DNA of 64,000 nucleotides from Proluteimonas flavola. Its GTDB lineage: Bacteria; Pseudomonadota; Gammaproteobacteria; Xanthomonadales; Xanthomonadaceae. The notes under the pieces were generated by a model. That model was given only the letters and a program-made list of their open reading frames with translations, was not told the DNA's origin and searched no databases. The position numbers and the translations under genes were made by a program. Positions 38,277-46,101 of this stretch are shown one piece after another (position 1 is the first letter of the stretch; each line of letters begins with the position of its first letter). The stretch is from assembly GCF_021191705.1 (NCBI RefSeq), contig NZ_JAIWPU010000003.1, positions 1 to 64,000 of the forward strand, written 5' to 3'.

Positions 38277-38517
38277 CGCACCCGTAGCAGCCGTGCGGGA
38301 TGACCGCACCGCTGCTGCACGCGCCGGGACGCGCCGGCATCGATCGGGCGTCAGCCCGGACGCCGGCTGCGGTGGCATCGCCCGCGCGCAAGGCGACGAC
38401 TCCACCCGCGCGCCGTTTGGCCCCGCCCCAGGATGGCCCTCGCCCCGCCCCGCACCGGCATGCCGGCCGCGGAGTGGCGGAAACGCCCCGCTCGCGCATC
38501 GTCTTGTATCGGGAGCG

Positions 38518-38547
38518 GGAAATTCGTGCAGGGGATCGGGGTGTCTG
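38518..38547 (+). promoter_or_regulatory. Candidate FecI-type (ECF) promoter
   Basis: GGAAAT (38518-38523), an 18-bp spacer and TGTCTG (38542-38547) resemble the E. coli fecA promoter elements (GGAAAT and TGTCCT, 17 bp apart). The operon that begins 5 bp later encodes a FecI-type sigma factor. A start from here would give an almost leaderless mRNA for the M14 gene, or translation could begin at its downstream ATG (codon 11). Confidence 0.35.
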
Positions 38548-38552
38548 AGGAC

Positions 38553-39761
38553 ATGCGTCGCGCGTGCTGGATTCCAATCGTCATGCTGGCGCTGCTGGCG
38601 TTCGGCCCGCCGGTGCTCGCGCGGAGCGCGGACGGCGCAAGCGTCCCGCCGCAGGCACGCGGCCTGTGGCCATTCCCCGACGATGGCGTCACCTTCGACA
38701 ACCTCGGCGAAGGCGCGCGCCTGAGCGGCGTCAGCCGCACCGCACCCGGCCACTACCGGGTCACGGTGCTGCCCGAGACCTCGCCGATCAATCCCAGCCC
38801 CTGGTATGCCTTCGGCATCGCGGCCGAGCGGCCGGTGCGGATCACCCTGGACATGCGGTACGGGCAGACGCGCCATCGCTATACGCCCTGGCTGCTGCCC
38901 GACGGCGCGGACGCCTGGGCGACCGTGGCGGGCGATGCGGTGGCGGTGTCCGAAGCCGGCGAGGCCGCCATCACGCTGGCGCTGCCGGCGGGGCGCAGCC
39001 GCATCTCGGCGCAGCCGCCGGTGCGGCTGGACGCCATTGCCCGCTGGCAGGCCGCGCTGGTCGCGCGGACGCACGCGGACGTGCTGCCGATCGGCACCTC
39101 GGTGCAGGGGCGCACGTTGGAGATGGTCGCGTTCGGCAATCCGCAGGCCCGCGAAGCGGTGCTGATCCTCGGCCGCCAGCATCCGCCCGAAACCACCGGC
39201 ATGCGGGCCCTGCAGGCATTCGTGGACAGCGTGGCGGCCGACGATCCGGTCGCCCGCGCGTTCCTGGCCCGGTTCCGGGTCCTGGTGGTGCCGGTGGTGA
39301 ATCCCGACGGCGTGGCGGACGGACACTGGCGCACCAACGCCAACGGGATCGATCTCAACCGCGATTGGGGCCTGTTCGAGCAGCCGGAAACGCGCGCGGT
39401 CGCCACGGCGCTGGCGCAGCAGCTGCAGGACCGGTCACTGGCCTTCGCGCTGGACTTCCACTCGACCTGGCACGACATCTTCTACACGGTGACCGAGGAT
39501 CCCTCGCGCGCGCCGGGCGGGGTGATGCACGACTGGCTGGCCGAGCTCGACCGGCGCTTTCCGGGGCGCATCATCGAACGCCCCGGCCCTGCCGCCAGCA
39601 CCAGCCATGTGTTCAAGAACTGGGCGTTCCGCACCTACGGGGCACCGGTCGTGACCTACGAGGTCGGCGACGACACCGATGCAGGCACGCTGGCGCAGTT
39701 GGCGGACTTCGGCGCCCATGCGTGGATGCGCCGGCTCGGCGCGACCGCACCCGCCCCATGA
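38553..39761 (+). CDS. Secreted M14-type zinc carboxypeptidase, first gene of sigma/receptor operon
   Basis: 402 residues with a Sec signal (PIVMLALLAFGPPVLARS). An N-terminal beta-sandwich-like domain (about 30-165) precedes the M14 domain. Zinc ligands are H210 and E213 (GRQHPPE) and H303 (ALDFHSTW). NPDGVADGHWR and NGIDLNRDW supply the substrate-carboxylate Arg region, and E370 (VTYEVGD) is the general base. It should trim peptides in the periplasm or outside. Its stop overlaps the sigma factor start (ATGA), so the two are translationally coupled. Confidence 0.88.
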   Translation: MRRACWIPIVMLALLAFGPPVLARSADGASVPPQARGLWPFPDDGVTFDNLGEGARLSGVSRTAPGHYRVTVLPETSPINPSPWYAFGIAAERPVRITLDMRYGQTRHRYTPWLLPDGADAWATVAGDAVAVSEAGEAAITLALPAGRSRISAQPPVRLDAIARWQAALVARTHADVLPIGTSVQGRTLEMVAFGNPQAREAVLILGRQHPPETTGMRALQAFVDSVAADDPVARAFLARFRVLVVPVVNPDGVADGHWRTNANGIDLNRDWGLFEQPETRAVATALAQQLQDRSLAFALDFHSTWHDIFYTVTEDPSRAPGGVMHDWLAELDRRFPGRIIERPGPAASTSHVFKNWAFRTYGAPVVTYEVGDDTDAGTLAQLADFGAHAWMRRLGATAPAP

Positions 39762-40351
39762 CGGCCGCCATCTGCCCGAGCCGCATCGCCTGGCTGGCCG
39801 GGCACGTGCTGCCCCACGAGCCGGCGCTGCGGCAATGGCTGGCCGGGCGGGGGCCGGGCGCGTTGTCGGCCTGCGAGATCGACGACATCGTGCAGGACAC
39901 CTACGCGGCACTGGTCTCGCTGGCGGCGGTGGACCACATCGATGCGCCGCGCGCCTACCTGTTCACCACTGCGCGCTCGATCCTGCTGCAGCAGCTGCGC
40001 CGGGCGAAGGTGGTGCAGATCGAGGCCGTGGCCGACATCGAGCGGCTGCGCGTGGAGGACCAGCACACGCCCGAGCGCCACATGTCGGCGCACCAGGAGC
40101 TGCGGCGCTTGCACGCACTGCTTGCCGCATTGCCGGGCAAGTGCCGCGAAGCGTTCGTGCTGCGCAGGGTCGAGGGGCTGACGCAGCGCGAGATCGCCGC
40201 GCGCATGGGCATCAGCGAGAACACCGTCGAAAAACACGTCGGCAAGGCATTGCGCCTGCTGACCGACGCCATGGGCCGGGGGGACTCGCCCGGTGCCGAT
40301 TCTTTCATGGAGCAGGTCGATGACATCGATGGACGCCGGAATGTCCGTTGA
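39758..40351 (+). CDS. FecI-type ECF RNA polymerase sigma factor
   Basis: 197 residues. Region 2 (about 30-95) includes EIDDIVQDTYAALV and RAYLFTTARSILLQQLRRAK. Region 4 (about 125-180) reads LLAALPGKCREAFVLRRVEGLTQREIAARMGISENTVEKHV when read across. This is the iron-starvation/FecI subgroup, which is released by a FecR partner when a TonB receptor is engaged. It overlaps the M14 gene by 4 bp upstream and the anti-sigma gene by 32 bp downstream. Confidence 0.9.
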   Translation: MTAAICPSRIAWLAGHVLPHEPALRQWLAGRGPGALSACEIDDIVQDTYAALVSLAAVDHIDAPRAYLFTTARSILLQQLRRAKVVQIEAVADIERLRVEDQHTPERHMSAHQELRRLHALLAALPGKCREAFVLRRVEGLTQREIAARMGISENTVEKHVGKALRLLTDAMGRGDSPGADSFMEQVDDIDGRRNVR

Positions 40352-41300
40352 GCAACAGGCTGCCGACTGGGTGGCGCGCGAGGATCGCGGTCCCCTGTCC
40401 GGGGAGGCACGCGCGCAACGGGATGCCTGGCTGGCCGCCAGCCCACGGCATCTGGGCGCTTATGCGCGGGCGCACGCGGCGTTCGTGGCGCTGGCGCGTG
40501 TCCGCGCCGTGCCCGCGGCCGCGCCGGCGGCCTCCGGCCGGCGGCGGCGCCTGCTGCGCTGGAGCGCCGGCCTGGCAGCCACGGTGGCGGCCTGCGCGCT
40601 GGCGATCGCGCTGCACGGCGCATGGCCCGCCGCGCACCGCAGCGCCGACGGCATCAGCGCCGTCGACCTGCCCGACGGTTCGCGCATGGTGCTCAACGCC
40701 GACAGCGAGGTGCGCCTGCACTTCGACGCGCAACGCCGCGAGGTCGCGCTACTGCGCGGCGAGGCCATGTTCGAGGTGCGCAAGGATCCCACCCGCAGGT
40801 TCGTGGTGACCGCGGGCCGCAACCGGGTGGTCGCGATCGGCACCGCCTTCAGCGTGCAGCGCAGCGGCGAGGACGACATCGTGGTGCTGGTCCGCGAAGG
40901 CCTGGTGGATGTCAGCGAGGGCGACGCCCCCAGGCCGGTACGCGTGGCGTCGAACTTCCGGGCCAGGACCCAGGCCGGCGGCACGGTCGAGATCGAGCCG
41001 CTGCGGACCGACGTGGTGGACAGGCACCTGGCCTGGAGCCACGGCATGCTCGCCTTCGAGGGCGACACGCTGGCCCAGGCCGCTGCGCAGTTCGCACGCT
41101 ACAGCGAAGTCCGCATCCTCATCGACGAGCCGCAGGTCGCCCAGCAGCGCGTGGCCGGCCTCTACGCAGCCGACGATCCGGAGGGGTTCGCCCGCGCCGT
41201 GGCGACCAGCCTCGGCCTGCGCATGTCGCGCGACGCAACGGGCATCCACCTCCACGCGGCCCCGCGCTTCGCGCCCGCCGTGTCCACCCAGCAGCAATGA
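40320..41300 (+). CDS. FecR-type anti-sigma factor / signal transducer
   Basis: 326 residues. The N-terminal cytoplasmic domain (about 5-60) has QAADWVAREDRGPLSGEAR, then AWLAASPRHLGAYARA, the sigma-binding module. One TM helix (about 80-103) is followed by the periplasmic FecR domain (about 115-210, VDLPDGSRMVLNADSEV) and a C-terminal STN-contacting region. It senses the occupied TonB receptor and frees the sigma factor. The start overlaps the sigma gene by 32 bp. Confidence 0.9.
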   Translation: MTSMDAGMSVEQQAADWVAREDRGPLSGEARAQRDAWLAASPRHLGAYARAHAAFVALARVRAVPAAAPAASGRRRRLLRWSAGLAATVAACALAIALHGAWPAAHRSADGISAVDLPDGSRMVLNADSEVRLHFDAQRREVALLRGEAMFEVRKDPTRRFVVTAGRNRVVAIGTAFSVQRSGEDDIVVLVREGLVDVSEGDAPRPVRVASNFRARTQAGGTVEIEPLRTDVVDRHLAWSHGMLAFEGDTLAQAAAQFARYSEVRILIDEPQVAQQRVAGLYAADDPEGFARAVATSLGLRMSRDATGIHLHAAPRFAPAVSTQQQ

Positions 41301-41335
41301 GCCACTCACGACCACCCAGGGGAGTCCGAACGTCC

Positions 41336-44300
41336 ATGCAGAATCGAATCCGCACGCTAGTGTCGCGTCCCGCATCAGATGCCGGCCTGCACGTGCCCTC
41401 GGCGCGCATCGCCGCGTTGCCTGGCTTGCCAGGACGGTCGGTACTGGCTGCGCCAGGCGCCTTGCGCTGCACGCCGATCGCGGCGCGCAGCCTGCGACAT
41501 CTGATGCGGGACGCGACACTAGACCGCGCCGTCCGGATCGCGCTTGTCGCCTCCGTCCTGGGCGCCAGCAGCGCCGTGGCCGCGCAACAACGCGACTTCG
41601 ACCTGCCCGCCAGCGACGCGAACCGCGTGCTGCCCGATTTCGCCCGACAGGCCCGGGTGCAGGTGATCGCGCCGGCCGACCAGCTTGCCGGCGTACGCAC
41701 CGACGCGCTCAGGGGCCGCATGGACGTGCGCGAGGCGGTGACACGGCTGCTGTCGGACACGGGACTCGAAGTCGTCAGCCAGGACGACCGCAGCATCGTG
41801 CTCGGCGTTCCGCGACAGCCGGTCCTGCTGGCCTCGAACGGGCCGATCGCGCAGGCCACGGCGCAGGTCGCCGAAACGGAACAGGCGCCGGTTGCATCGC
41901 CCCCGCCCGCGGGTCCGCAGGCCCGCGACCTGGCGACGGTCACCGTCACCGGCAGCTTCATCCGCGGCATCGATACCGAAACCGCCTTGCCGGTGACCAG
42001 CCTCACCCGCGACCAGCTGGACATGACCGGCGCCACCACGCTCTCCGATGCGCTGGCCTATCTCCCGCAGTCGTCGGGCTTCGACAATTCCGAAACATCG
42101 ACCGGCCCCAATGCCGCGCGGGGCGACGCGGCGTCGATCAACCTGCGCGGCATCGGCTCGGGCAACACCCTGGTGCTGCTCAACGGCCGTCGACTGGCCC
42201 CGCACCCGATCTCCGAAGGCGCGGTGCCCAGGCTTTCGGCCAACATCAACCAGATTCCGCTTGGCGCGGTGGAGCGTGTCGAAGTGCTGCGCGACGGCGC
42301 ATCCGCGCTGTACGGTTCGGACGCGGTGGCCGGTGTGGTCAACACCATCCTGCGTCGCGATTACGAAGGCATGGAGGTCAACGCACGCCATGGCTGGGTG
42401 GACACCGGCGACCTAGCGGAAACCACGCTCAGCGTGCTGGGCGGGCGCAACTTCAACGACGGCCGCACCAACGCGATGGGCTTTCTGGGCTATTACGACC
42501 GCTCGGCCCTGTCCACGCGCGACAAGTGGTACAGCCGCAACGGCGACCTGCGCGCGCGCGCGGGCAGCACCAGCACGCTCTGGGACAACCGCTCGACCAG
42601 CGGCCCCTACGGCAACTTCAGCACCGGTCGCATCGATGCGGACGGCAACTTCAGCACCGCCAGGGCGCCGGGCCTGAGTGGCGCGTCATTCCATATCGCC
42701 CCCGACGGCAGCGGCACGACGGTCGCCAATGGCACGTTGCCGCGCGACCTGCGCTACGACTACACCCCCGAGTACGTGCTGCTGCCCGACACCACGCGCT
42801 ACCAGGCGTTCGGCGCCTTGAACCACCTGTTCGACAACGACATCGAAGCCTATGCGCAGGGCTTCTACTACCGCGCCGACTCCTGGACCTCGAACGCCAC
42901 CTCGCCGATTTCGGCCAACGCCGACAACGGCATCCACGTGCCGGCCAGCAACTACTACAACCCGTTCGGCACGCGCTTCTACGGCCCGGGCACCGCGAAC
43001 CCCGGCATCGCGCCGATGGACGTGCGCATCAACAACTATCGCCCGCTGGAACTGGGGCCGCGCACGGCCGACGTCGCCTCGCGGGCCTACCAGGCCCTGG
43101 CCGGGTTGCGCGGCGGCATCGGCGAGTGGAACTGGGAAGCCGGGGCCAGCTACGGTGCCGGCAAGACCCGCGACGAGGCGGGCAACATGATCCGCGAAAG
43201 CGCCCTGCGCGACCTGCTGGCCCTCGACACCCCCGATGCCTTCAATCCCTTCGCCGGCCCCGGCGCGAACAGCGCGGCCACGCTCGATGCGGTGCGCGTG
43301 AACACCTGGCGCGAAGGCGAGGCCTCGCTGGGCACGGTGGACGTCAAGGCCACCGGCCCGCTGCTGGACCTGCCCGGCGGCACGCTGCAGATGGCAGCCG
43401 GCCTGGAATACCGCCGTGAGACGTTCGACGACCGCCGCGACGCACTCTCCAATGCCGACGACGTGATCGCCCTGAGCCAGACCAGCGATTCGAGCGGCAG
43501 CCGCAACATCCGCTCGGCATTCGTGGAGTTCTCGGTGCCGATCTTCAGCGACCGCAATGCACGGCCGGGCTTCAAGCGGATGGAGCTCTCGCTTGCGGCC
43601 CGCACCGAGGACTACAGCGACTTCGGCAATGCCACCAAGCCCAAGATCGGGCTGACATGGGGCCCAACGGACTGGTTGATGCTGCGCGGCTCCTACAACG
43701 AAGGCTTCCGCGCGCCGACGCTGGCGCAGGTCTTCGTGGGCGAGATCGTCCGTCGCAATGCGGGGACGCCCGATCCCTATCGCGCCGACGTGACCGGCAC
43801 GGCCGCCGACCTGGGCGAGGAATCCAGGCAGGTCATCCGGGGCGGCAACGCCGAGCTGGGGCCCGAGCAGGCCAAGCTGCACTCGTTCGGCATGGTCCTG
43901 CAGCCCACGTTCGCCGAAGGCCTGACGCTCAGCCTGGACTACTTCCGCATCCGCCAGCACGACGTCATCGACACCTACGGCGAGTCGCAGCAGCTCGCAC
44001 TCGATGCAAGCCTGCGCAGCAGCGGACAAGGCGCCAACCCCTCGGTCGTACGTGCCGCGGTGACGGCTGCCGACCAGGCGGCGTTCGATGCCTGGAATGC
44101 CGCCAACCCGAACGACCCGCGCGTGGCCGCGGGCGAAGTGCTCTACGTGATGGACACCTTCATCAACATCGCCTCGCGCACGATCTCCGGCTACGACGTG
44201 AGCCTGGATTACCGCTTGCCGGACACCCCGCTGGGCCGTTTCACGTTGCGCCTCGCCGGCTCCTACACGGACACGTACGAAGAAAAAGTGGCGGACGATG

Positions 44301-44665
44301 CCCCCACGACCTCGCCGCTGCGCATCAACGGCTTGCCGCGCGTGCGCGGCACCGCGGGCGTGCAATGGCGCCGCAACGCGCTGGACGCGAGCATGTTCGT
44401 CAGCCGGATCGGGTCGTTCTACGACACCAGTGCGCCGTGGAACGATGACGGCAGCTATTACCGGATCGCGCCGTGGACCACGGTCAACGCGCACGTCGGC
44501 ATGCGCTTCGAGGCCCTGGGCGGCCGCAGCAACTATCTGCGCGTGGGCGCCAACAACCTCTTCGACCGCGCACCACCGCTGGCCGACGAGGATCGCGGGT
44601 TCTTCGAGGGCGTGCACGACGGCCGCGGCCGGCTGTTCTACGCCGAATGGCGCCTGGAACTGTGA
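41336..44665 (+). CDS. STN-domain TonB-dependent transducer (FecA-like), N-terminus altered by insertion
   Basis: From the ATG at 41336 the frame is 1109 codons. The barrel and plug are intact: STN domain (RDFDLPASDANRVLPDFARQ onward), TonB box (DLATVTVTGSFIRG), [49 protein letters not shown], and a terminal FYAEWRLEL. A 166-bp palindromic element (41357-41522) interrupts the signal-peptide codons in frame. Deleting it restores MQNRIRTLDRAVRIALVASV, a normal signal. An ATG inside the element (41504) yields MRDATLDRAVRIALVASV and may be the present start, though no ribosome site is evident. The stop overlaps the next gene's GTG (GTGA). Confidence 0.88.
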   Translation: MQNRIRTLVSRPASDAGLHVPSARIAALPGLPGRSVLAAPGALRCTPIAARSLRHLMRDATLDRAVRIALVASVLGASSAVAAQQRDFDLPASDANRVLPDFARQARVQVIAPADQLAGVRTDALRGRMDVREAVTRLLSDTGLEVVSQDDRSIVLGVPRQPVLLASNGPIAQATAQVAETEQAPVASPPPAGPQARDLATVTVTGSFIRGIDTETALPVTSLTRDQLDMTGATTLSDALAYLPQSSGFDNSETSTGPNAARGDAASINLRGIGSGNTLVLLNGRRLAPHPISEGAVPRLSANINQIPLGAVERVEVLRDGASALYGSDAVAGVVNTILRRDYEGMEVNARHGWVDTGDLAETTLSVLGGRNFNDGRTNAMGFLGYYDRSALSTRDKWYSRNGDLRARAGSTSTLWDNRSTSGPYGNFSTGRIDADGNFSTARAPGLSGASFHIAPDGSGTTVANGTLPRDLRYDYTPEYVLLPDTTRYQAFGALNHLFDNDIEAYAQGFYYRADSWTSNATSPISANADNGIHVPASNYYNPFGTRFYGPGTANPGIAPMDVRINNYRPLELGPRTADVASRAYQALAGLRGGIGEWNWEAGASYGAGKTRDEAGNMIRESALRDLLALDTPDAFNPFAGPGANSAATLDAVRVNTWREGEASLGTVDVKATGPLLDLPGGTLQMAAGLEYRRETFDDRRDALSNADDVIALSQTSDSSGSRNIRSAFVEFSVPIFSDRNARPGFKRMELSLAARTEDYSDFGNATKPKIGLTWGPTDWLMLRGSYNEGFRAPTLAQVFVGEIVRRNAGTPDPYRADVTGTAADLGEESRQVIRGGNAELGPEQAKLHSFGMVLQPTFAEGLTLSLDYFRIRQHDVIDTYGESQQLALDASLRSSGQGANPSVVRAAVTAADQAAFDAWNAANPNDPRVAAGEVLYVMDTFINIASRTISGYDVSLDYRLPDTPLGRFTLRLAGSYTDTYEEKVADDAPTTSPLRINGLPRVRGTAGVQWRRNALDASMFVSRIGSFYDTSAPWNDDGSYYRIAPWTTVNAHVGMRFEALGGRSNYLRVGANNLFDRAPPLADEDRGFFEGVHDGRGRLFYAEWRLEL
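41357..41522. mobile_element. MITE-like palindromic insertion
   Basis: The 25-bp ends are perfect inverted repeats (left begins CTAGTGTCGCGTCCCGCATC, right ends GATGCGGGACGCGACACTAG). The outer CTAG on each side can be read as a 4-bp target duplication, which makes the net gain 162 bp, exactly 54 codons, and keeps the receptor gene in frame. No transposase is encoded. No second copy was found in this window. Confidence 0.75.
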
Positions 44666-46101
44666 TCGTCCGCGCCCTGCAGGCCGCGCTGCTGGCGGGC
44701 CTGCTGTGTGCGGCGCCCGGCAGCCGGGCCGGCGGGCAGGCCTCCGTGCTCGCGGCCATCGACGCCTACGCTCCGCGCATGGGCGAGGTGGCCGATGCCC
44801 TGTGGCACAACGCCGAGCCGGGATATCTGGAGCAGCGCAGCTCGGCGCTGCTCCAGCGCGAACTGCGCGAGGCCGGCTTTTCCATCGAACCGGGCGTGGC
44901 CGGCATGCCGACCGCCTTCGTCGCCCGCGCCGGCAACGGGCACGGCCCGGTGATCGCGCTGCTGGCGGAGATGGATGCCCTGCCGGGCATGGGCCAGGCC
45001 GCAGTGCCCGGCCACAGCCCGCTGCACGGGCAACCGGGGCATGCCTGCGGGCACAACCTCTTCGGTGCCGGCACCGTCGCCGCCGCACGCGCGGTGGCCC
45101 GCTGGCTGCACGACAGCGGCCGGCCCGGTGAGATCCGCGTCTACGGCACGCCCGCCGAAGAAGGCGGCTCGGGCAAGGTCTACATGGTGCGCGCTGGCCT
45201 GTTCGACGACGTGGACGCGGTGCTGCACTGGCATCCGGCCGACCGCAACAGCGCTGCGCAGTCGGGCTCAATGGCCAACGTCAACGGTCGCTTCCGGTTC
45301 GCCGGCCTCGCCTCGCACGCCTCCATCGCGCCCGAGCGCGGGCGCTCCGCGCTCGATGGGGTGGAAGCGATGAACCACATGGCCAACCTCATGCGCGAGC
45401 ATGTCCCCGTCGACGCCCGCATCCACTACACCATCAGCGACGGCGGTGGCGCCCCCAACGTGGTGCCCGCCTCGGCCGAAGTCTGGTACTACGTCCGCCA
45501 CCCCGATCCCGATGTCGTGCGCGGCGTGTTCGAGCGCGTGCAGAACGCGGCGGAAGGCGCCGCGATGGGCACCGGCACCCGTGTGGCGTACACACCCCTC
45601 GGCGGGGTCTACAGTCTGCTGCCCAACGACACCCTGGGCCGGGTGCTCGACAGCGCCCTGCGCGCATCCGGCGTCGCCGCGCCCGACGCGGACGCCGTGT
45701 CCTTCGCGCGGTCGATCCAGCAGACGCTGGCGCAGCCCCCGGCGCTCGAAACCCTCACCGCCATCGCCGACTACGGCATCGACGGGGTTTCCCACGCATC
45801 GACCGATGTCGGCGACGTGAGCTGGACCGTGCCGACCGCCGGGCTGTCCACCGCGACCTGGGCGCCCGGCACGCCGGCGCACAGCTGGCAGGCCACTGCC
45901 GCATCCGGCCATGCGCTCGGACACGCCGGCACACGGACCGCCGCGCGTGCGATGGCCCTGGCCGCGATCGAACTGGTTGGAAAACCCGACGTCCTGAAAC
46001 AGGCACGCGAAGAGCTTGATCGGCGCCGGGGCGAGCACTTCGACTATCGCCCGCTGCTGGAACGCGACACGCCGCCGCTGGACTACCGCGCAACCCGGTG
46101 A
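44662..46101 (+). CDS. M20D amidohydrolase (AbgB-like), exported
   Basis: 479 residues from a GTG that overlaps the receptor stop (GTGA). A signal peptide (ALQAALLAGLLCAAPGSRA) implies export. M20 motifs include LLAEMDALPGMGQ (metal Asp region), GHACGHNLFGAG (His/metal ligands), GTPAEEGGSGK (catalytic Glu pair) and a lid domain with ASHASIAPERGRSALDG. Closest family resemblance is to p-aminobenzoyl-glutamate and N-acyl-amino-acid hydrolases. An exported copy is unusual, since AbgB acts in the cytoplasm. It completes the operon by cleaving an amide-linked nutrient, which is inference. Confidence 0.85.
   Translation: MIVRALQAALLAGLLCAAPGSRAGGQASVLAAIDAYAPRMGEVADALWHNAEPGYLEQRSSALLQRELREAGFSIEPGVAGMPTAFVARAGNGHGPVIALLAEMDALPGMGQAAVPGHSPLHGQPGHACGHNLFGAGTVAAARAVARWLHDSGRPGEIRVYGTPAEEGGSGKVYMVRAGLFDDVDAVLHWHPADRNSAAQSGSMANVNGRFRFAGLASHASIAPERGRSALDGVEAMNHMANLMREHVPVDARIHYTISDGGGAPNVVPASAEVWYYVRHPDPDVVRGVFERVQNAAEGAAMGTGTRVAYTPLGGVYSLLPNDTLGRVLDSALRASGVAAPDADAVSFARSIQQTLAQPPALETLTAIADYGIDGVSHASTDVGDVSWTVPTAGLSTATWAPGTPAHSWQATAASGHALGHAGTRTAARAMALAAIELVGKPDVLKQAREELDRRRGEHFDYRPLLERDTPPLDYRATR

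Follow-up and report, generated by a model that had tools for sequence, protein, structure and literature searches.

The signal-peptide codons of a TonB-dependent receptor gene are split in frame by a 160-bp palindromic element that we classify, from its sequence, as an IS630-type non-autonomous element (MITE). The insertion appears to be tolerated as a longer, cleaved leader translated from the original ATG at 41336, and we give this explanation as a whole a probability of roughly 0.7. In what follows, 'the window' is the whole 64,000-nucleotide stretch of Proluteimonas flavola DNA that was analysed.

Element at the receptor locus

The receptor gene (41336..44665, plus strand, 1109 codons) encodes STN, plug and barrel regions; the Pfam models PF07715 and PF00593 scored over their cut-offs and PF07660 (STN) just under (27.2 vs 28.4). 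Directly upstream lies a FecR-type regulator gene (40293..41300, plus strand; Pfam PF04773). The frames 38433-39761 and 44600-46101, which we take to be zinc carboxypeptidase-like and M20-type peptidase-like and to flank sigma factor, FecR and receptor genes, suggest a peptide-related uptake locus.

The MITE proper covers 41360..41519 (160 bp, no strand assigned), with borders set by alignment of the copies, and is an imperfect palindrome from end to end. Its terminal inverted repeats at 41360..41381 (plus) and 41498..41519 (minus) match perfectly over 22 bp, and the wider arms, 41357-41384 and 41495-41522, are 28 nt each and 96% complementary. The 22-mer of the terminal repeat occurs twice in the window, at the element's own two ends, vs 0.01 occurrences expected. 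On either side stands a TA within CTAG, the left one at 41358..41359 (CTAG 41357-41360) and the right one at 41520..41521; both were placed from a flank comparison covering 15 long and 4 short copies, the right one also by the empty site of homologues. With the TA duplicated, the net insertion is 162 bp or 54 codons. It sits at codon 8 of the receptor, and the frame 41336-44665 crosses it with zero stops; the openness of a 54-codon stretch was by itself given zero weight at this GC content (approximately 69% for the own genome, in 464 kb). With 5 of 160 positions deviating from the consensus of the copies, the window copy looks young, so the intact frame is no proof of function.

The first-pass annotation had placed a MITE-like palindrome at 41357-41522 and proposed that it splits the signal-peptide codons in frame by 54 codons. 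The inverted arms were found at those coordinates, and the insertion in the n-region was supported. Perfect 25-bp ends had also been described, which holds if the self-palindromic CTAG is counted; otherwise the perfect ends are 22 bp long.

Receptor homologues without the element

The nearest receptor homologues, in genomes G015 (74% identical) and G014 (73%), have the start and the signal peptide and are without the element. They start MHIHRTRLAGAIRFAVATFALGAAPAFAQEREFDLP (36 residues), and the window receptor minus the 162 bp starts MQNRIRTLDRAVRIALVASVLGASSAVAAQQRDFDLP (37 residues). Two further homologues at 43% identity (G028 and G034) also lack the 54 codons. Empty alleles thus exist, and the ends recur elsewhere in the genome, so that the mobile-element reading withstood both comparisons on which it could have failed. 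The remainder of the original signal peptide, RAVRIALVASVLGASSAVA, is now at 41525..41581 (plus), approximately 63 codons past the start; its cleavage site, like the signal peptides and cleavage sites of the other fusions described below, was judged by eye.

Copies in the same genome and the target site

A search with the 17-base end (at most 2 mismatches) gave 47 matches vs 1 for the reversed control. In the own genome there were at least 15 long copies (91-100% identical, core 156-160 bp), 4 intact short copies (with a core of 79 bp, shorter by 81 bp), one truncated short copy and fragments, all counts being lower bounds with 40 of the 293 first-look candidates scored. The net length was divisible by three in 12 of the 15 long and 4 of the 4 short copies. 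In the right flank of one copy (L010, G000:C53 near 4725) a lone extra terminal-repeat piece, TAGTGTCGCGTCACGTAG, abuts the element.

Of the 19 copies whose flanks were compared (15 long and 4 short), 12 kept TA at both ends, five had one of the two altered (L003, L008, L012, L015 and L023) and two had both altered (L011 and L021). CTAG had been considered as a 4-bp target duplication, giving a net insertion of 162 bp and 54 codons. This duplication was rejected, since the left flanks of L004 and L010 read TTAG and ATAG and both right flanks read CTAG; the net length stands. What is duplicated is TA, with CTAG as the preferred context.

Judged by a single fixed criterion, the stop codon of a high-GC3 frame was hit by 8 of 20 own copies, and in all of these but L023 (7 of 8) the frame had a Pfam domain. 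The stop codon is mostly regenerated at such copies because the element starts with G after the TA. A preference for stop codons was rejected, as the placement is explained well enough by the location of CTAG sites (8/20 copies vs 15/58 unoccupied sites, p 0.26); with the borderline copies L009 and L013 included, the count was 10/20 (p 0.056). One copy (L015, G000:C76:10105-10265) lies between convergent histidine kinase and M90 peptidase genes and touches both stop codons. Another (L021) interrupts a CPXCG gene (PF14255) and, as read by eye, introduces a stop. The genomic context of some own copies is ambiguous, e.g. for L003 and for L020, which lies at the end of a contig.

Relationship to IS630

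In the own genome, a broken IS630-type transposase gene (part of DDE_3) adjoins an end reading CTAGTATCTCGTCACGCATCAAATGTCGG. After CTA, 22 of 26 positions in the end of this remnant are identical to the MITE end; among the other 26-mers in 400 kb, both strands, the highest count was 20. Genome G146 contains an IS630-type element with DDE_3, at least 1225 bp long and running to the contig end, whose ends are CTA followed by GTGTCGTGTCATGCG and CTA followed by GTGTCACGTCACATG. These match the MITE end at 20/26 and 17/26, counts that as such do not stand out from the background (maximum 20), and their weight would rest on the position after CTA and the identical outermost bases.

With respect to the IS630/Tc1-mariner MITEs, the segment is short (160 bp), is repeated (at least 15 long copies), is without a transposase gene, has terminal repeats in common with an IS630-family element (the own remnant, 22/26) and has a duplicated TA target. 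The MITE reading of the first-pass annotation is accordingly borne out by the multi-copy family, the terminal repeats and the IS630-type ends in the own genome, and an IS630-family transposase would be the source of mobility in trans. A search of the own genome for PF13358 gave two broken matches and no active partner, and no complete active source with MITE ends was found. The transposase end fragment was present in 2/247 family genomes and the end pattern in 1/398 genomes, in a sample listed without G024 and G052. At another own-genome locus (L116, G000:C16, 635-787) a second MITE-like element, with ends TTAGTATCGTGTCTCAG and CTGAGACACGACACTAA, lies within a broken IS630 transposase gene.

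In-frame copies in a related genome

The element gave 7 match rows in G024, which belongs to the same genus as the own genome, and 17 in G052, which belongs to another. At least 6 of the 16 copies examined in G052 lie in open frames of recognisable genes, a lower bound from the subset of frames tested per copy. Homologous genes without the element were the basis of comparison for the receptor and for two of these copies, L125 and L136. L125 is in an RsmC-like methyltransferase gene (PF05175; NF007023 under its cut-off), and the segment is absent in 4/4 other genomes, where the homologue matches in two pieces, overlapping or at most 15 bases apart. L136 is in an S9 peptidase gene (PF00930, PF00326), the own-genome homologue of which is 72% identical and without the element. 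For L136 the comparison used row L227; row L228 and the RsmC rows of the relatives were in wrong frames and were set aside.

The other four copies were compared with family models only. L124 is in GlnD (TIGR01693 over cut-off; PF08335), immediately before FAVGGYGRGELFPCSDIDLL, and L137 is in an amidase (PF01425; NF006006), between an upstream ATG-TGC and ALLLAIAAMMVGSQAVHA, with a Shine-Dalgarno (SD) value of -7.5 for a GTG within the element vs -5.7 for the upstream ATG. In L139 (G052:C40 near 12560) an LptA (TIGR03002 over cut-off) reads MNPTP, then a decayed element, then TLAVLSALLLPTAALA, and in L141 the element follows MNAMG (SD -8.3) and precedes RAVRSFPAAAAVPLLCLLLAGC in an RND adaptor (TIGR01730 over cut-off). 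SD pairing at the lptA ATG is weak (-3.2). Of the in-frame ATG, GTG and TTG codons up to the lptA signal, two are upstream of the element and one, a GTG, is within the hydrophobic stretch; since the element itself offers no such start, LptA would carry a longer leader. LptA is essential in many Gram-negatives. A second lptA may exist in G052, which is counted against the explanation that we favour.

At lptA, the RND adaptor and the amidase, as in the receptor, the element follows the start and precedes the hydrophobic segment of the signal peptide. Insertions in the n-region thus make up 4 of the 7 open in-frame insertions (the receptor plus six in G052). Four further copies (L127, L129, L131 and L140) were rejected as fusions, because the domains are well downstream of the element, which is probably upstream of the genes; in L133, L135 and L138 the frames tested contained zero domains.

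Hairpin and receptor output

The predicted receptor mRNA forms a single long hairpin spanning the element, and the region folds below shuffles (z -3.95). Alignment A1 of 23 copies (15/15 long own copies, 2/7 G024 rows and 6/17 G052 rows, most others being partial matches) had standard pairs in 95.7% of paired cells and double-sided changes in 17 of 52 hairpin pairs; four pairs near the apex also covary. None of 500 shuffles reached any of the five measures, and slid structures dropped to 17-46% paired, a comparison that favours the scored structure, as it was predicted from the same alignment. The covariation is explained in part by relatedness of the copies, co-evolution of the ends and the use of the same alignment for the structure. 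The hairpin may be kept by RNA selection or by arm-to-arm copying. When G024 and G052 copies were folded singly, 16 of 21 gave z at or below -2; L139 and L143 did not (-0.8 each), and at L139 the frame has therefore outlived the hairpin.

It could be argued that the insertion is damaging, with the long leader and a stable hairpin approximately 22 nt into the coding sequence cutting receptor output, and that the gene is being lost. The folding of the element region well below shuffles is consistent with such an effect, and so is the scarcity of own copies inside genes, as if they were usually removed: 2 of 20 (the window copy and L021) vs 24 of 65 unoccupied CTAG sites (p 0.027), from simple GC-frame gene calls with criteria that differ between the two sets. 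We nevertheless consider it unlikely that the insertion is damaging in this way, as the receptor frame, its start region and the downstream gene are intact and G052 has at least six in-frame insertions in open conserved genes despite the divergence of its copies.

Translation start

The original start codon (ATG, 41336..41338, plus), which lines up with the start of the homologues in G014 and G015, is preceded by the SD-like AGGGGAG at 41318..41324 (plus). Anti-SD pairing in the 17 nt upstream was -7.8 kcal/mol, a value equalled by approximately 2-3% of 2000 random 17-mers of the window, and the starts of the homologues gave -8.3 and -11.5 kcal/mol. In the predicted mRNA, the unpaired fraction around this ATG was 47% with the element vs 49% in the empty allele. 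The right terminal repeat contains a second in-frame ATG (41504..41506, plus), a weak start candidate which is paired in the stem and has no SD (+0.4 kcal/mol over the 17 nt upstream; surroundings 12% unpaired). An in-frame CTG at 41444 had -7.2 kcal/mol upstream.

Since the SD and the accessibility are retained at ATG 41336 and ATG 41504 has neither, these predictions suggest that the receptor is most likely still translated from ATG 41336, with a leader that is 54 residues longer. The first-pass annotation had offered both this leader and a start codon donated by the element, and of the two the leader is the likelier. If ATG 41504 were the working start, it would initiate MRDATLDRAVRIALVASV and restore a near-normal signal peptide of ordinary length, and starts within the element are likely at two other genes. 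At the receptor we regard initiation there as quite improbable, however, given the values above and the strong site that the old ATG retains.

The first of these genes is imuA (NF033429), before which G052 (L056) and G143 (L181) have a common insertion; the gene upstream of it is presumably lexA-like. The most natural imuA start is likely to be the ATG in the right terminal repeat of the element, judging from the sequence, with the reservations that its SD is weak (-4.0 and -4.9) and that the NCBIfam model leaves the first 15 residues uncovered. The second is tatD in G052 (L143), where the TatD domain (PF01026) starts right after the element and TatD models begin approximately 3 residues past a GTG in its right end (SD -6.4), so placed that the tatD start codon is likely inside the element. 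Donation of a start codon is thus unlikely at the receptor and plausible elsewhere in the family.

Distribution and related hairpin repeats

With 8 candidates per genome scored, 42 of 101 genomes contained a match at E 0.001. Matches longer than 100 bp were limited to 3 of 101 (the own genome, G024 and G052), and a wide spread of the exact element was therefore rejected. An exact-pattern scan of named genomes returned one record, Luteimonas sp. BDR2-5, and a plasmid search for the element returned zero matches.

Under strict filters, a covariance model built on the hairpin found matches in 9/198 family genomes and 6/54 genera, several of the matches having the apical core in common and different ends. 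Hairpin repeats with the core GCGTTGC..CCTTGCCAAGGCGGCCAGCCTTGGCGGCGG were seen at L182, L190 and L197 (G244), L183 (G004), L185 (G224) and L187 (G203), and these have other ends, e.g. TTAGAGCGTGTTATGCACTTTGG. The apical-core pattern, with at most 3 mismatches, was present in 7/198 family genomes, the own genome not being among them. The core-sharing repeats look like a modular MITE set.

Rfam gave zero matches at family cut-offs for region 41000-42000 and for eight loci; the rows for mir-3099 in L187 fall outside the element. The open frame and a sub-threshold Rfam match to Xoo5 (E 0.038, 22.7 bits vs a cut-off of 50) might suggest that the segment is plain protein sequence specific to the lineage, or an RNA element belonging to the gene. 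Both readings are very improbable in view of at least 15 long copies at other loci, the terminal repeats, the TA duplication, an IS630 element with matching ends and the empty alleles.

Discussion

We propose that an IS630-family transposase would have moved the non-autonomous IS630/Tc1-type MITE in trans into the receptor gene at codon 8, entering the TA of a CTAG, with duplication of the TA. The insertion would add 54 codons and leave the gene open, because 160 + 2 bp is divisible by three and the phase entered (CTA followed by GTG) is stop-free. The longer leader would come after the start codon and before the hydrophobic core; with the cleavage site of the signal peptide unchanged, successful export would yield an unaltered mature receptor. 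Removal of the leader would probably make such insertions tolerable. Against this, so long an n-region could prevent export, or the hairpin could reduce expression.

Several known repeats resemble the element in part. RUP of pneumococcus and Correia/NEMIS are MITEs with TA ends, and the ends of RUP resemble IS630-Spn1 (PMC2229807). Like the present element they are approximately 100-200 bp long and have terminal inverted repeats, TA ends and a long RNA hairpin; they differ in sequence and host, the likeness being one of description. RUP is reported from intergenic regions and from IS elements (PMC2229807). IS630 of Shigella sonnei inserts into TA within CTAG and duplicates the TA, according to a title in a reference list (Tenzen and Ohtsubo 1991, in PMC2170065); it is autonomous and is likened to this MITE by target only, not by sequence. 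The IS5-like MITEPsy1 of Pseudomonas syringae (100 bp) is also small and at CTAG sites, and is described with a 4-bp duplication, CTAG or YTAA (PMC3189936), whereas TA is duplicated here.

The Rickettsia palindromic elements (RPE), roughly 150 bp long, are reported in frame in conserved protein genes (PMC2229807, PMC10969869), and the present element is likewise a palindrome of similar size inserted in frame in such genes. By comparison, the own genome has 1/20 copies in an open in-frame fusion and 8/20 on stop codons, and G052 at least 6/16 in frame; moreover, the transposon family is identifiable here and insertions in signal-peptide n-regions are recurrent. The Yersinia repeat YPAL/RU-2 is 168 bp long and has an open frame; in the YPO1552 fusion it is part of the predicted signal peptide (PMC2229807). 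That repeat helps to form a signal, whereas this element splits an existing one, with element-free homologues. In-frame MITEs are thus already known from RPE and YPAL, and the pattern of insertion in signal-peptide n-regions looks new; neither family nor pattern was found in the papers searched on miniature inverted-repeat elements of Luteimonas, Lysobacter and Xanthomonas and on in-frame signal-peptide MITEs.

A wider proposal, which is tentative and to which we give limited credence, is that Luteimonas/Lysobacter genomes hold a family of modular hairpin MITEs, with a conserved apical hairpin and exchangeable ends, that recurrently become in-frame protein. The signal-peptide n-region would be a safe site, and the receptor, LptA, RND adaptor and amidase would be made and exported with a MITE leader of approximately 54 residues; start codons would be supplied at other genes, and the hairpin would be kept by selection or arm-to-arm copying.

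The receptor is a clean, testable case in a GC-rich bacterium of a mobile element that splits a signal peptide in frame, with element-free homologues known. The same position recurs in three further exported proteins from a related genome, LptA among them, which would make the n-region length accepted by the export machinery directly testable. It would also illustrate how selfish DNA can become part of proteins at low cost, the extra residues being removed by cleavage. Should the paired changes in the hairpin be due to selection, the element may have a role as RNA as well.
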